Origin: Aliidiomarina iranensis
GTDB lineage: Bacteria > Pseudomonadota > Gammaproteobacteria > Enterobacterales > Alteromonadaceae
DNA length: 64,000 nucleotides
NCBI RefSeq assembly: GCF_003987135.1
Contig: NZ_PIPJ01000001.1
Span: 620,001-684,000 of the forward strand
Direction of reading: 5' to 3'
Part shown: one piece after another, positions 16,841 through 63,913 of the stretch
Layout of the letters: every line of letters starts with the position of its first letter
How positions within the stretch are numbered: position 1 is the stretch's first letter
Program-made: the position numbers and the translations under genes
Notes under the pieces: generated by a model
Told to the model about the DNA's origin: nothing
Databases searched by the model: none
Seen by the model: the letters and a program-made list of their open reading frames with translations, nothing else

Positions 16841-16889
16841 GATCTTCGTTATTTTAGCCTGCGCACTGAAGGCGCTAGCGCATGATTAG

Positions 16890-16987
16890 TTGCGCATGAT
16901 TACTTGCGAACAATTATTTGCGAACAATTATTTGCGAACAATTATTTGCGAACAATCACTTGCGAACCATTACTTGCGCATAGATTC
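16890..16987. repeat. 14-bp tandem array running into the 3' end of suhB
   Basis: Seven units close to TTGCGAACAATTAT; three central copies (16904-16945) are identical and outer copies diverge. The right-hand units cover the last codons and the stop of suhB (suhB ends at 16970 on the minus strand), so the array looks as if it was copied outward from the suhB stop region. Confidence 0.9.
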
Positions 16988-43748: not shown

Positions 43749-44618
43749 ATGGATCAAGCAGTGAACTGGCTCGTTGAAAACCAAGAAGCAATTTTGCTTT
43801 TTGCTGGTAAGTTCGTTATTGCACTCGCTATCGTGGTGGGTGGTTTCGTGCTCTCCGGTATTCTTACAAAGAGCATGAAAAAGCGTTTAGATAAAAGCAA
43901 AATCGATAACGCGGTTGTATCTTTTATGGCGGGGATTATCCGCACGATTATCATCATCGCTTCATTACTCATGGCGCTTTCTCATGTAGGTGTGCAAACC
44001 ACCTCGTTCATCGCTATTTTAGGTGCTGCCGGTTTAGCTGTAGGTTTGGCTTTACAAGGTTCACTTTCAAACTTTGCTTCTGGTGTGCTCATCATGATTT
44101 ATCGTCCGTTTAAATCGGGTGATTATGTAGATGCGGGTGGTATCGCCGGCACAGTTGAACGCATTGAGCTGTTTATTACTGTTTTGAAAACACCGGATAA
44201 TAAAATTGTCATGGTGCCGAACTCCCGTATCACGGGTAATGAAATCACTAACTTTTCACAGGAACCGATTCGCCGCGTTGATATGGTAATTGGTGTTTCT
44301 TACGATGCTGATCTGAAAAAAACCAAAGAAGTTTTAATGGAAGTAATCAGCTCGGATGAGCGCATGCTTCAAGATCCAGCACCTCGAGTATCAGTTAATG
44401 CACTGAATGATTCCTCGGTAGATTTTATCGTTCGCCCTTGGGTGAAAAGTGAAGATTATTGGCCAATGTATTGGGATAGCATGGAGCGCATTAAAAACGC
44501 ACTTGATGCTAATGGCATTGGTATTCCATATCCGCAAATGGATGTTCACTTGCACCATCCTGAAGGCCAAGTGAGCGAGCTTCGTATCGCAAACCCCGAA
44601 AAGCTCGAACAAAAATAA
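43749..44618 (+). CDS. mscS: Small-conductance mechanosensitive channel MscS
   Basis: Homoheptameric channel that opens under hypo-osmotic shock. Three N-terminal membrane helices; the pore helix has the Gly/Ala pattern LGAAGLAVGLALQGSLSNFA, followed by the SGVLIMIYRPFKSGDYV beta-domain entrance. 289 residues, against 286 in E. coli MscS. Placed 33 bp after gspN but functionally unrelated. Behind it lies a nested palindromic repeat. Confidence 0.95.
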   Translation: MDQAVNWLVENQEAILLFAGKFVIALAIVVGGFVLSGILTKSMKKRLDKSKIDNAVVSFMAGIIRTIIIIASLLMALSHVGVQTTSFIAILGAAGLAVGLALQGSLSNFASGVLIMIYRPFKSGDYVDAGGIAGTVERIELFITVLKTPDNKIVMVPNSRITGNEITNFSQEPIRRVDMVIGVSYDADLKKTKEVLMEVISSDERMLQDPAPRVSVNALNDSSVDFIVRPWVKSEDYWPMYWDSMERIKNALDANGIGIPYPQMDVHLHHPEGQVSELRIANPEKLEQK

Positions 44619-44647: not shown

Positions 44648-44888
44648 GGTGTGGGAGCTAGCATTCGCAGGGATGCCGAATATACATCCTTGTAGGCTTG
44701 GCTGCCGCATGGAGCTCAGTGGCTTCCGCGGGGTCTGTGGGTGCCAGCCAGAACCGCTCAAGCACATCCATGTGTCGCTGTGATCCGCGCCATCCTTGGC
44801 GCGGACACTTCTGGCTAGCACCCACAGACCAAGCTCGCGCCACTGAGTTCCATGCGGCAGACACCCTGCGAACGCTAATCTCCCACCT
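44648..44888. repeat. Composite nested palindromic element (type A inside type B)
   Basis: Outer type B: arm GTGTGGGAGCTAGCATTCGC (44650-44669) pairs with the complement near 44867-44886, and the B core (ACATCCTTGTAGGCTTGG then GCCGCAT at about 44704-44710) continues at ATGCGGCAGACACC (44852 onward). The B hairpin tip is split by a type A element (44711-44851): left arm 44711-44753, core 44754-44810 (CACATCCATGTG then a GCGCC/GGCGC hairpin), right arm 44809-44851. The A arms pair over about 43 bp, imperfectly. The whole gap between mscS and xseA (44619-44996) holds nothing else I can recognise. Confidence 0.9.
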
Positions 44889-44996
44889 CGAAACATTCAG
44901 CCAAGCCCCCAGGGATGGGTTTACGGCGTCTCTGGATCGTGAGGGGCTTAAGCGGAATACAGCTGTTGCCTTGGCGAAGCCTTGCCGAGAGCTGGA

Positions 44997-46355
44997 TTAT
45001 TCTGGCTTTATGTTTTCGATGCGGCTGAGGATTTCGCCGTTGGCGAAGCGGGTGCGCAGTTGATCGCCGGCTTTGAGGTGATTTACATCGCGAATAATAT
45101 TGCCCGCGTTATCGAAACTGATGGTGTAGCCACGCTCAAGGGTTTGTAAGGGGCTTACCAGGCCCAACGCTTGTTGGTTTGCTTGCATACGCGCATTCGA
45201 ACGATTCAGCTGCGAGGTAATGGCTTTTATTGCGCGCTGTTGATATTGCTCGCGCAGAGCCTTTTCTTTTTCAATGCGAAACGCTGGGTTTACTCGAACT
45301 AGCCGTTGCTGCATTTGTGTTTGCACTTGTTTGGATGTTTGCAAATTCCGGCGCAAGCTACGCTGCAAGCGGCTGTTGAATTCATCGAGTTGCTGCGCTT
45401 TGGTTTGTAGGCGTTGCTGCGGGTTTAGTGGAACCAAACGGCGCTTTGCGTGCTGCAACATCAGGTTGCGGCTCTGCCGATATTGCTGCCAGGCTCGTTG
45501 TAAGCGCAATTGTGTTTGCGCCAGTGAGCGCAAATACTCGCTGCGATCTTGGCTCACGAGTTCTGCGGCTGCCGAGGGCGTGGCGGCGCGCACATCGGCT
45601 ACGAAATCAGCGATGCAGAAATCAACTTCATGGCCAACGGCGCTGATAGTGGGGATAGGCGATGCGGCAATATCTCGCGCTAGCGCTTCATCGTTAAAGC
45701 ACCACATGTCCTCCAGCGATCCGCCGCCCCGCGTTAGTAGCAAAGCATCCACCTCGTTGCGATTCAGTGCAATAGCAAGTGCTTGGCGGATTTGCTCTGC
45801 TGCGGTGGCGCCTTGTACTTGGGTGGGGTAGATGATAACTCTGAGTTCGGGGTCGCGACGTTTTAGTACGCTCAGAACATCACGAATAGCGGCTCCGGTG
45901 GGTGAAGTGATAATACCTAAAGTGCGAATCGGTGTGGGTAGGGGGCGCTTATTTTCTGCTGCAAACAAGCCTTCGGTATTGAGTTGCCGCTTTAAAGCTT
46001 CGTATTGCTGTTGTAGCAAGCCCTCACCGGCAGGCTCGAGTTGATCGATGATGAGCTGATAATCGCCGCGTGGCTCGTAGAGGCTGAGCCTGCCACGAAC
46101 TAATACTTGCATTCCGTTCGCTGGACGTAATTTCACGCGGGCGTTGTTGCCACGGAACATAGCGGCCCGAATTTGCGCGTCTTTATCTTTTAAGCTGAAA
46201 TACCAATGCCCAGAACCGGGCGCTGAGAAGTTGGAAATTTCTCCGAGAAGCCACACAGAACCCCATTGCGATTCAAGTAAACGCCGCACTTCACTGTTTA
46301 ATCGGGCTACGGTGAAGATTTTTCGTTGGCCATTGCTATTGCTATCGGGTTGCAT
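44997..46355 (-). CDS. xseA: Exodeoxyribonuclease VII large subunit XseA
   Basis: Large subunit of exonuclease VII, which degrades single-stranded DNA from both ends. The N-terminal OB-fold shows GEISNFSAPGSGHWYFSLKD, the catalytic core has GVITSPTGAAIRDVL and LLTRGGGSLEDMW, and a long coiled-coil region (about residues 270-390) is rich in Gln, Arg and Leu. I use the ATG at 46355, with AAGG eight bases upstream; a GTG three codons upstream is possible. 452 residues against 456 in E. coli. Divergent from guaB. Confidence 0.96.
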   Translation of the reverse strand: MQPDSNSNGQRKIFTVARLNSEVRRLLESQWGSVWLLGEISNFSAPGSGHWYFSLKDKDAQIRAAMFRGNNARVKLRPANGMQVLVRGRLSLYEPRGDYQLIIDQLEPAGEGLLQQQYEALKRQLNTEGLFAAENKRPLPTPIRTLGIITSPTGAAIRDVLSVLKRRDPELRVIIYPTQVQGATAAEQIRQALAIALNRNEVDALLLTRGGGSLEDMWCFNDEALARDIAASPIPTISAVGHEVDFCIADFVADVRAATPSAAAELVSQDRSEYLRSLAQTQLRLQRAWQQYRQSRNLMLQHAKRRLVPLNPQQRLQTKAQQLDEFNSRLQRSLRRNLQTSKQVQTQMQQRLVRVNPAFRIEKEKALREQYQQRAIKAITSQLNRSNARMQANQQALGLVSPLQTLERGYTISFDNAGNIIRDVNHLKAGDQLRTRFANGEILSRIENIKPE

Positions 46356-46431
46356 CAGTAACACCTTTTCACATACTCAGTATTGGCACCTATGATAGCG
46401 GAATCTCGATGGAATGAAATGGTGGATTTTA

Positions 46432-48228: not shown

Positions 48229-48386
48229 GAAAGCGGCTGCACTGGGTGGCTTCCGCGTCTAGGTTGGGTGCCACCGGGAACCGCTCGAGCACGTCCATGT
48301 GGCGCTATGATCCACGCCATCCATGGCGTGGACATTTCCCGCCGGCACCCAACTAGACGCTCGCGCCACGCAGCGCCGCCGCTTTC
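48229..48386. repeat. Type A palindromic element, copy 1 of a tandem pair
   Basis: 158 bp. Terminal GAAAGCGGC pairs with GCCGCTTTC; inner arms TCTAGGTTGGGTGCC and its near complement pair across the core. The core (about 48281-48336) reads CCGCTCGAGCACGTCCATG onward and contains the CCACGCCATCCATGGCGTGG hairpin. It begins 13 bp after the guaB stop. Confidence 0.92.
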
Positions 48387-48610
48387 AAAGGCAACGAGGC
48401 AAGGTAGCTTCCGCATCTACGTTGGGTACCACCGGGAACCGCTCGAGCACATCCATGTGGCGCTATGTTCCACGCCATCCATGGCGTGGACATTTCCCAG
48501 CGGCACTCAACGTAGACGCTCGCGCTACCCAGTGCCGCCGCTTTTAAAAGGCAACGAGGCAAGGTTGCTTCCAAGTGAGCCGTAGGTGCCAGCGGGAACC
48601 GCTGGAGGTA
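48387..48610. repeat. Type A palindromic element, copy 2 plus a truncated copy 3
   Basis: Direct repetition of the preceding element with a period of about 158-160 bp. Copy 2 (to about 48546) has a nearly identical core but different arms (TCTACGTTGGGTACC) with matching changes in the opposite arm (CACTCAACGTAGACG). Copy 3 ends inside the left arm/core junction at about 48603. Confidence 0.88.
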
Positions 48611-48655: not shown

Positions 48656-48850
48656 AGGATGATGATAATGCTGCGCTCGTTACACGAAGTTGAGAGCGCG
48701 AGTGGGGTGGCATAGCCATTGCTGGAATGTCCGCGCCAAGGATGGCGCGGATCATAGCGTCACATGGATGTGCTTGAGCGGTCCAGCAATGGCTGTGCCG
48801 CCCCACGGAAGCTGGCTTCCGTAACTTTCCGCAGCATTATTATTATCCTA
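48656..48850. repeat. Type A palindromic element with unrelated long arms, reverse orientation
   Basis: The core (48727-48781) is the reverse complement of the type A core. The arms (48657-48726 and 48782-48849) are about 68 bp, imperfectly complementary, and share little with the arms of other copies: outer AGGATGATGATAATGCTGCG, inner CATAGCCATTGCTGGA. Together with the tandem pair it fills the guaB-guaA gap. Confidence 0.9.
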
Positions 48851-63205: not shown

Positions 63206-63418
63206 CAGGCTTGGCTGCGCACGGAGATCAGCGGCTTCCGCTGGGCCTGTGGGTGCCAGCTCAGTTTCTGGGAGGTTATGTGCTAATCCGGGACGCCGTA
63301 AATACGTCCATGTAGGCTTGGCTGCCGCATCCATGCGGCAGACACCCGGCTTCTCACATAACCTCCCAAAAACCCGCCAGCACCCACAGGCCCAGCTCGC
63401 GCCATGAGTTCGCGGGCT
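63206..63418. repeat. Composite nested palindromic element (type B inside type A arms)
   Basis: Type A-like arms (about 63222-63260, GGGCCTGTGGGTGCCAGC; and 63374-63410, CCAGCACCCACAGGCCC) enclose not an A core but a complete type B element: B arms TCTGGGAGGTTATGTG (63267-63282) and CACATAACCTCCCA (63355-63368), core 63283-63350 with ACGTCCATGTAGGCTTGG and the uninterrupted tip GCCGCATCCATGCGGC. The far left (GGCTTGGCTGCGCACGGA) resembles half of yet another B core. Confidence 0.9.
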
Positions 63419-63429
63419 TTAATAAAAAA

Positions 63430-63626
63430 ATGGCTGACGTTGATTCTGGTGTAGCAATGTTGCGTGTATTAATGGATCAATATGGTTTAAAAACAGCGGA
63501 TTTTGAGCACGAAATCGGAAAAAAAGCATGGTTTCGCAAGTACTTGCTGGTAAACGAAATCTGACGAAAGAACATATTATTAAACTCGCCAATCGTTTTC
63601 AGATCAGCCCATCATCTTTCTTCTAA
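63430..63626 (+). pseudogene. Frameshifted HigA-like helix-turn-helix antitoxin remnant
   Basis: Frame 1 from the ATG at 63430 reads GVAMLRVLMDQYGLKTADF and ends at a TGA at 63562. The -1 frame continues it after a run of seven A residues (63519-63525) as SMVSQVLAGKRNLTKEHI...NRFQISPSSFF, to the TAA at 63624. The joined product is the HTH domain of COG5499/HigA-type antitoxins; the N-terminal part usual in that family is missing. No toxin gene is adjacent. Palindromic elements flank it on both sides. A decayed gene or a sequencing error in the A run is likely; programmed slippage at A AAA AAA is possible. Confidence 0.7.
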
Positions 63627-63738
63627 AGCTCGAGTTTGCGCCGACAAAATTATGGTTCATGTGGTGAACTGCGGTTCTGCAGGGCGCCCGAGGCGGATCT
63701 GTGGGCGAAGGCGCGTTTGTGGAAGGCTACGGGCAAAG

Positions 63739-63913
63739 CTGGGTGTCTGCGGCATGGAATTCAGTGGCGTGAGGTGGGGCTGTGGATGCCAGGCAGAAGT
63801 GTCCGCGCCAAGGATGGCGCGGTACACAGCGTCACATGGATGTGCTTGAGCGGTTCTGACTGGCATCCACAGCCCCGCCGGAAGCCGCTGACATCCATGC
63901 CGCAGCCAAGCCG
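63739..63913. repeat. Composite nested palindromic element (type A inside type B), reverse orientation
   Basis: The type A core (about 63797-63852, reverse strand) is flanked by arms 63756-63796 and 63853-63892 (GGGGCTGTGGATGCCAGGC and GACTGGCATCCACAGCCCC). Outside these are the two halves of a type B hairpin: GGGTGTCTGCGGCATGGA on the left and TCCATGCCGCAGCCAAGCC on the right. The B element is truncated on the right, where the next gene ends. The stretch 63627-63738 before it is GC-rich and partly arm-like, with no gene I can support. Confidence 0.88.

Follow-up and report, generated by a model that had tools for sequence, protein, structure and literature searches.

Between an mscS-like gene (43749-44618, plus strand) and xseA (44997-46364, minus strand), both named by the look of their sequences, lies a palindromic repeat whose hairpin tip is occupied by a second palindromic repeat. 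The locus raises the question of what kind of elements these two repeats are, and of how one of them came to sit inside the other. It belongs to the window analysed here, a 64,000-nt stretch corresponding to positions 620001-684000 of contig C1 in the 2.65-Mb genome G000. We refer to the outer repeat as B and to the inner one as C. Our preferred explanation, to which we assign a probability of about 0.6, is that the locus combines, one within the other, two members of a single large and dispersed family of non-coding twin-hairpin elements, that these elements function as RNA with CsrA sites, and that they are grafted onto each other by template switching or conversion.

A palindromic repeat nested in the loop of another

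The B core is uninterrupted at 63.3 kb, where it reads GGCTTGGCTGCCGCATCCATGCGGCAGACACCC. At 44695-44866 the same string is broken into GGCTTGGCTGCCGCAT, 139 bp, and CCATGCGGCAGACACCC, the break falling in the second hairpin loop of the outer B, between GCCGCAT and CCATGCGGC. The insert (44711-44849) is a C-type element with its own arms and core. Boundaries and target duplication had been left to be defined by the original prediction; with the intact 63.3-kb copy as reference, the junctions display neither a target duplication nor the loss of a base. The prediction of a complete palindromic element with clean borders in the B loop was correct, and its length of 141 bp is corrected here to 139 bp.

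As had also been proposed, the outer B arms still pair across the insertion, 44650-44672 with 44864-44886. An inverted-repeat search recovered 44659-44672/44864-44877 at 93% and 44699-44753/44809-44863 at 84%. The minus strand of the 241-nt region folds with -163 kcal/mol (z = -14.90) and the plus strand with z = -14.56, and on either strand none of 200 shuffled sequences folded as well. The nesting of one palindromic repeat exactly in the loop of another is thereby confirmed. A search of the genome for both cores, another step that the prediction had called for, gave 16 matches for C, partial ones included, and 5 for B, counting the interrupted core at 44.65 kb. The features of the nest and of the other copies in the window are listed in Table 1.

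Table 1. Elements of the nest and further B and C copies, in window coordinates
Feature	Position	Strand	Basis
Outer B, left arm TGTGGGAGCTAGCATTCGCAGGG	44650-44672	+	pairs with 44864-44886; inverted-repeat search, fold
Outer B, hairpin 1, minus-strand loop CAAGGATG (Csr/Rsm-type)	44675-44697	-	fold, loop rule
Outer B, hairpin 2, 5' half of stem TGCCGCAT, broken in loop	44703-44710	+	junction comparison
Inserted C-type element, 139 bp	44711-44849	-	junction comparison; TwoAYGGAY-like, 25.8 bits
Internal-loop motif GCTTCCG (left), conserved	44722-44728	+	C copy comparison
C hairpin 1, minus-strand loop CATGGATG	44763-44774	-	sequence, C alignment
C hairpin 2, minus-strand loop CAAGGATG	44785-44804	-	sequence, C alignment
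Internal-loop motif CTCGCGC, conserved right partner of GCTTCCG	44834-44840	+	C copy comparison
Outer B, hairpin 2, 3' half of stem and GACACCC junction	44850-44866	+	junction comparison
Outer B, right arm; homologous flank also in sister genome G004	44864-44886	+	site comparison
Second B element, truncated; complete in G004 at the same place	44898-44934	-	inverted repeats, site comparison
First C of the cluster behind guaB; no element here in G002	48241-48371	+	
Second C of the cluster, tandem relative of the first	48405-48530	+	
Truncated C element; complete in G004	48566-48608	+	
C element, opposite orientation	48695-48813	-	
C-type arms (GCTTCCG/CTCGCGC) holding a complete B, no C core	63226-63406	+	
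B element with own arms; TwoAYGGAY-like at 34.8 bits, below the gathering score of 43	63257-63380	-	
C between B hairpin-2 stem halves, without B hairpin 1; composite copy	63738-63912	-	

Syntenic sites and the proposed joining of hairpins

Three syntenic sites were compared in our genome, in the sister genome G004 and in G002. In the mscS-xseA gap our genome holds the nest along with a truncated B. The same outer B is found there in G004 (left CAGGGACGCC, right flank CATCTCCCACCCCGAAACA), but its core is interrupted elsewhere, by a complete B, and the second B of the gap is complete. In G002 about 64 bp separate the aligned segments, and they contain no element. G002 thus provides the empty site that had been called for at this gap; an uninterrupted outer B, which was also expected at the orthologous gap, was not found in G004, where the outer B is interrupted as well. 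Behind guaB our genome carries three complete C elements and one truncated C, G004 three and G002 none. Clusters of C elements, some of them broken, also occur near contig ends or as short tandem groups in L029 (880-1260) and in L057, which suggests local duplication.

The third site (63.2-63.9 kb) consists in our genome of a B inside C-type arms, plus a C. G004 has the B alone, without C-type arms (its B arms and ours are alike in 19 of 27 and 19 of 30 columns), and G002 has a C plus a B with a repeated arm unit, present 3.0 times (41 nt) to one side of the core and 2.5 times (38 nt) to the other. Such two-sided arm repeats are what repeated self-nesting would leave, though symmetrical slippage may also have produced them. 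An insertion "aimed at the tip" of a hairpin, as the nest was originally interpreted, is too narrow a description for this site, where the resident B at 63.2 kb is wrapped by C-type arms that G004 lacks. Unless G004 lost these arms, the base of the resident would here have been joined to the tip of the newcomer. Between the C and the B of this site, G002 also carries a two-gene module (L249:6790-7529; 102 and 150 aa, HigB/HigA-like by appearance), and a broken remnant of the end of its second gene is found at the same site in our genome, at window positions 63430-63626.

We therefore favour a model in which the base of one hairpin joins the tip of another and nests result. Template switching at replication hairpins may bring about the joining, as may conversion through the common core, and no dedicated tip-seeking transposase would be involved; a tip-targeting transposase is disfavoured because it would not place new arms around a resident element. 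Base-to-tip joining is the simplest account that would cover C in B, B in B, B in C-type arms, repeated arms and alternative tips alike, resting as it does on few junctions and on the assumption that G004 kept the original state of the arms.

Pure gene conversion followed by decay, in which no tip receives an insert and ancestral composites were duplicated with their flanks and their cores homogenised by homologous recombination, seems unlikely to us as a full explanation, even if several observations fit it. The C insert recurs together with B hairpin-2 flanks at 4 other places with 87-89% identity (query spans starting at 46, 46, 57 or 58 and ending at 220). The right flank is retained in all four, the left flank GGCTTGGC in two, at 63.8 kb and at C12:345926, and the remaining two keep GCATGG only. 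The outer flanks beyond these copies differ among the places. The composite of C and B hairpin-2 sequence has thus also been copied as a unit; the first joining may therefore have happened elsewhere, and in either direction. Joint variation of the two parts as one unit had been named at the outset as an observation that would speak against an insertion, and the composite bears this out in part. Also in keeping with conversion, the G004 ortholog of one of our elements has a different core subtype between conserved arms.

A further case is offered by a site in Stenotrophomonas that was followed through 30 loci, in 24 of which the outer flank was found (G329 is assigned to Stenotrophomonas on the basis of a 100% match between the S. 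maltophilia D457 query and G480, a genome of that genus). Classified by eye, the tip is of type 1 in 9 loci, of type 2 in 7 and of a third core type in 6; one locus is a chimera, its left arm being of type 2 and its right arm of type 1, and one is empty. These tip types, and the left/right chimera at a single site, are again as expected from conversion. The third core type, GACGCTGCAAGTACGTCC in L295 and present with small variants in L298, L306, L307, L309 and L313, has a similar twin-hairpin plan. Conversion alone does not, however, create the first C-in-B, B-in-B and B-in-C-arms junctions, nor does it explain why the hairpin-2 loop is also filled in a distant genus. In Stenotrophomonas, 23 of 61 genomes have B copies, 47 in all, with a multi-hairpin insert at this loop; the insert replaces ATCC and measures 83 nt in 29 of the 30 loci examined and 82 nt in one. 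This is a second, unrelated loop filling, and it probably goes back to one old event. Its minus strand reads GCAGGA in 30 of the 30 loci examined (L162:1412 among the copies).

Kept pairing, the structured strand and predicted CsrA/RsmA sites

B and C are built to the same plan: a long stem closes two hairpins whose plus-strand loops read TCCN, the loop starts being spaced 22-23 nt in B and 25-27 nt in C. Three genomes of one genus supplied the 27 C copies compared here (14, 11 and 2). CTTCC starts 31 or 32 nt upstream of the core in all 27 of them, and a CTCGCGC-type motif starts 25-27 nt after the core in 25, the exceptions being one copy at 20 nt, with the motif doubled, and one at 23 nt, with a broken arm. 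The cores are similar among paralogues (median identities of 0.91-0.92). For the inner arms of about 20 nt the median identity is 0.60 in G000 (91 pairs), 0.55 in G004 (55 pairs) and 0.50 in G002 (1 pair), against 0.55 for shuffled arms, with arms held in common by some copies, such as those at 44.7 kb, at 63.8 kb and three on contig C12.

Pairing is retained all the same. A consensus structure was drawn from a minus-strand alignment of 25 C elements and scored on that alignment, which includes related copies, so that cells are not independent events; it pairs in 95.1% of cells compared with 71.4% after shuffling. Double-changed cells number 240 compared with 75.2 and are present in 24 of 28 arm pairs; the covariation score is 0.590 as against 0.140 after shuffling and at most 0.107 for slid registers. 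Differences between C arms are mostly two-sided and few are one-sided, which suggests that stems turn over as paired blocks rather than by single steps, and would fit whole-stem replacement better than stepwise RNA compensation. The long closing stem would then be largely free in sequence as long as its pairing is kept. Foldback copying of host flanks was rejected as a general origin of the C arms, since the conserved GCTTCC/CTCGCG motif is located beyond the variable arms and keeps a constant distance. For the GCTTCC/CTCGCG loop itself a K-turn or tandem G.A pairs were considered, and neither is claimed.

The original prediction overlooked both the structured minus strand and the loops discussed below. 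On the plus strand, the arms of 140 B elements contain 156 A.C/C.A and 32 G.T/T.G oppositions and those of 27 C elements 20 and 5, so that on the minus strand G.U pairs outnumber A.C mismatches. When B stems of Gammaproteobacteria were counted by genome group, 39 of 58 groups were in favour of this asymmetry, 3 were against and 16 were ties (sign test with ties left out, p = 5.6e-9); the two B copies of our own genome tie at 1 to 1. Pyrimidine-pyrimidine oppositions on the plus strand of B exceed purine-purine ones by 129 to 30. With the two Stenotrophomonas groups and the unlabelled group left out, the counts were 114 vs 18 in 79 elements. Such asymmetry implies that the minus strand is exposed to selection or mutation in single-stranded form, and stem opposition counts provide a way to tell which strand of a palindrome matters. 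The minus strand is thus the structured one, most simply as RNA; the G.T bias could also stem from single-stranded DNA hairpins or from transcription-linked mutation.

Orientation relative to neighbouring genes was counted with crude ORF calling, by which 64 B and 6 C copies fell inside ORFs, many of these probably spurious, and 12 B and 2 C copies at edges. The 63 intergenic B copies divide into 20 ++, 14 --, 16 +- and 13 -+, and 14 C copies into 4, 2, 5 and 3, respectively. With gene orientation lacking a clear bias, a cis role at the 3' end, as part of a 3'UTR, is unsupported.

The same lack of bias would be expected if the repeats were single-stranded DNA elements, that is, non-autonomous hairpins of the IS200/IS605 or REP type inserting into exposed tips, the minus-strand bias then marking the DNA strand recognised by a transposase. 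REP palindromes are known targets of the insertion sequences IS1397, IS621 and ISKpn1 (PMC1525189), and a strand-specific G.T bias would arise from a single DNA strand as well. A genome-wide profile search for Y1_Tnp nevertheless gave no match in our genome, so that a Y1 (RAYT) transposase of the kind that goes with REP elements was not found there, while the control search was positive in 5 of 14 genomes. The loops, moreover, obey the consensus of an RNA-binding protein, including its two free positions. We consider a single-stranded DNA element quite unlikely, and return to the RNA element as the preferred reading.

Loop sequences were tallied with a class-wide B pattern that leaves both loops free, apart from the first C in both loops and the last G in hairpin 2, which the pattern itself fixed. 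It occurs in 15 of 369 genomes, our own included, and its reversed control in none. Among the 73 matches listed, of 97 by counts, the minus strand reads ANGGA in hairpin 1 in 69 and in hairpin 2 in 68, with variation mainly at the two N positions of CANGGANG. Both minus-strand hairpins thus read CANGGANG, which is the published Rsm/Csr site: the Rsm consensus is given as A/UCANGGANGU/A and the SELEX consensus as RUACARGGAUGU (PMC6849547), and RsmE structures hold an ANGGAN hexaloop (PMC7652899). According to the latter source, two sites can be bridged by a CsrA dimer when they are spaced by 10 to 63 nt, and bridging is best at spacings above 18. The loops of B and C elements are ANGGAN hexaloops on stems, and their starts lie 22-27 nt apart, within this range. 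Two CsrA genes above the Pfam cut-off are present in our genome. We infer that the paired CANGGANG loops of the minus-strand RNA are predicted docking sites for a CsrA/RsmA dimer, each element then acting as a small CsrA tether or sponge. The 44.65-kb nest holds three ANGGA-type loops, one in outer hairpin 1 and one in each C hairpin, against two in a plain element, and nesting would in this manner add a site.

Known relatives and distribution

Two Rfam families resemble the elements. On the minus strand, the B element at 63257-63380 matches TwoAYGGAY (RF01731) over its full length with 34.8 bits, and the nested C at 44720-44842 matches it with 25.8 bits, the gathering score of 43 being reached by neither. 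TwoAYGGAY was absent from a 20-kb scan of the window at E up to 1, had no match in our genome at E 0.001 and did not match the two G004 B elements at E up to 1. Members of the genus (G002, G006 and G008) have matches of 35-36 bits, that of G002 (C2:263580-263701) being its C element at the third syntenic site. Matches over the cut-off occur in 4 of the 38 genomes searched, and among 20 B loci the sole pass is L100, from another genus of the same family, with 44.0 against 43. We thus call the window elements TwoAYGGAY-like rather than members. The order on the minus strand is that of TwoAYGGAY, a long outer stem, two hairpins with A-N-GGA loops at the junction and a CAAG-type linker. Hypervariable arms, dispersal in many copies and nesting distinguish the window elements from TwoAYGGAY as it is portrayed in the relevant parts of PMC2864571 and PMC4333381. 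In 2010 TwoAYGGAY was described as a probable RNA, probably not cis-regulatory (Weinberg et al., PMC2864571), and it was later proposed to bind CsrA (PMC4333381). In a genome of the same family, an above-cut-off TwoAYGGAY match (L320, about 1500-1700) has nearly perfect arms of about 46 bp by eye.

The second family, the Yersinia sRNA Ysr224 (RF02770), holds the B core almost letter for letter in its consensus; it differs in aligning on the plus strand of the element, opposite to the inferred minus strand. Scores stay below its gathering score of 70, with 30.5 for the window and 36.6 for the best locus (L112). Ysr224 is reported as temperature-responsive and as one of the top 20 sRNAs by annotation count (PMC9029176), and such a high count would fit a repeat. 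High-scoring matches to plant microRNA families (MIR8670 and others) were taken as chance hits of long hairpins to hairpin models.

Neither the window nor the element queries matched Rfam families of the CsrB/RsmY/RsmZ type. RNAs of that type carry more CsrA sites each, and they are dedicated genes, whereas two to three sites are found here per dispersed repeat. Paired hairpins with GGA loops are common to both (PMC7652899, PMC4333381). Insertion into a dispersed palindrome likewise recalls the REP/BIME targets of the insertion sequences named above (PMC1525189), from which the present case differs in that the inserted DNA is itself a palindromic repeat with no evident gene, in a genome where no Y1 transposase was found. 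REP sequences are described as short hairpins with a GTAG or CGTC tetranucleotide at one foot (PMC3733652). In the open-licence literature we found no paper with the core sequence, and, among papers on nested palindromes, on repeats and CsrA or on CsrA and mobile elements, none that by title and the start of the abstract concerns elements of this kind. CsrA has been discussed for other (TAACTGA) repeats and judged unlikely there (PMC4679880).

Ordinary terminators or stability hairpins with chance similarity and coincidental nesting, a view that the intergenic position and the strong hairpins might invite, are refuted as a full account and keep next to no probability, given the exact B pattern in 18 of 369 class genomes (our own included) with none for the reversed control pattern, the covariation in C elements and the exact loop borders. 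As the class scans use exact patterns, these counts are undercounts. The B pattern is present in at least 120 stretches of named genomes; the carriers listed include Stenotrophomonas, Pantoea, Erwinia, Pseudidiomarina, Alteromonas, Marinobacter, Saccharospirillum, Methylomonas, Thioalkalivibrio and Luteimonas. The arms differ between copies in several genera; in Stenotrophomonas the copies have them largely in common. A distant DNA search at E 0.001 returned no match to the B core in plasmids, E. coli genomes or phages. By plain similarity the C core was found in our genome and in 2 of 57 others, both of our own genus, which is an undercount because G006 holds a more divergent C-like element (L072).

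The nested palindrome is in this way tied to a family of twin CANGGANG hairpins in many gammaproteobacterial genera, and TwoAYGGAY and Ysr224 are linked to one architecture. If the RNA reading is true, carriers would have CsrA/RsmA sites, numbering from a few to dozens, that lie outside mRNAs and known sponge RNAs. One may speculate further, tentatively and with the odds somewhat against it, that gene-less RNA elements of Gammaproteobacteria multiply CsrA-binding sites by hairpin grafting and so form a distributed, evolvable sponge. Grafting of this kind would give telescoped nests, swapped tips and a turnover of stems with pairing and loops fixed, and the sites with alternative tips may serve as a natural record of palindrome growth.

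Two other repeats were noted in the window, a tandem array of a 12-bp unit, TTCGCATGATCC x 5.7, at 1339-1406, and tandem units of 14, 28 and 42 bp around ATTACTTGCGAACA at 16878-16986.
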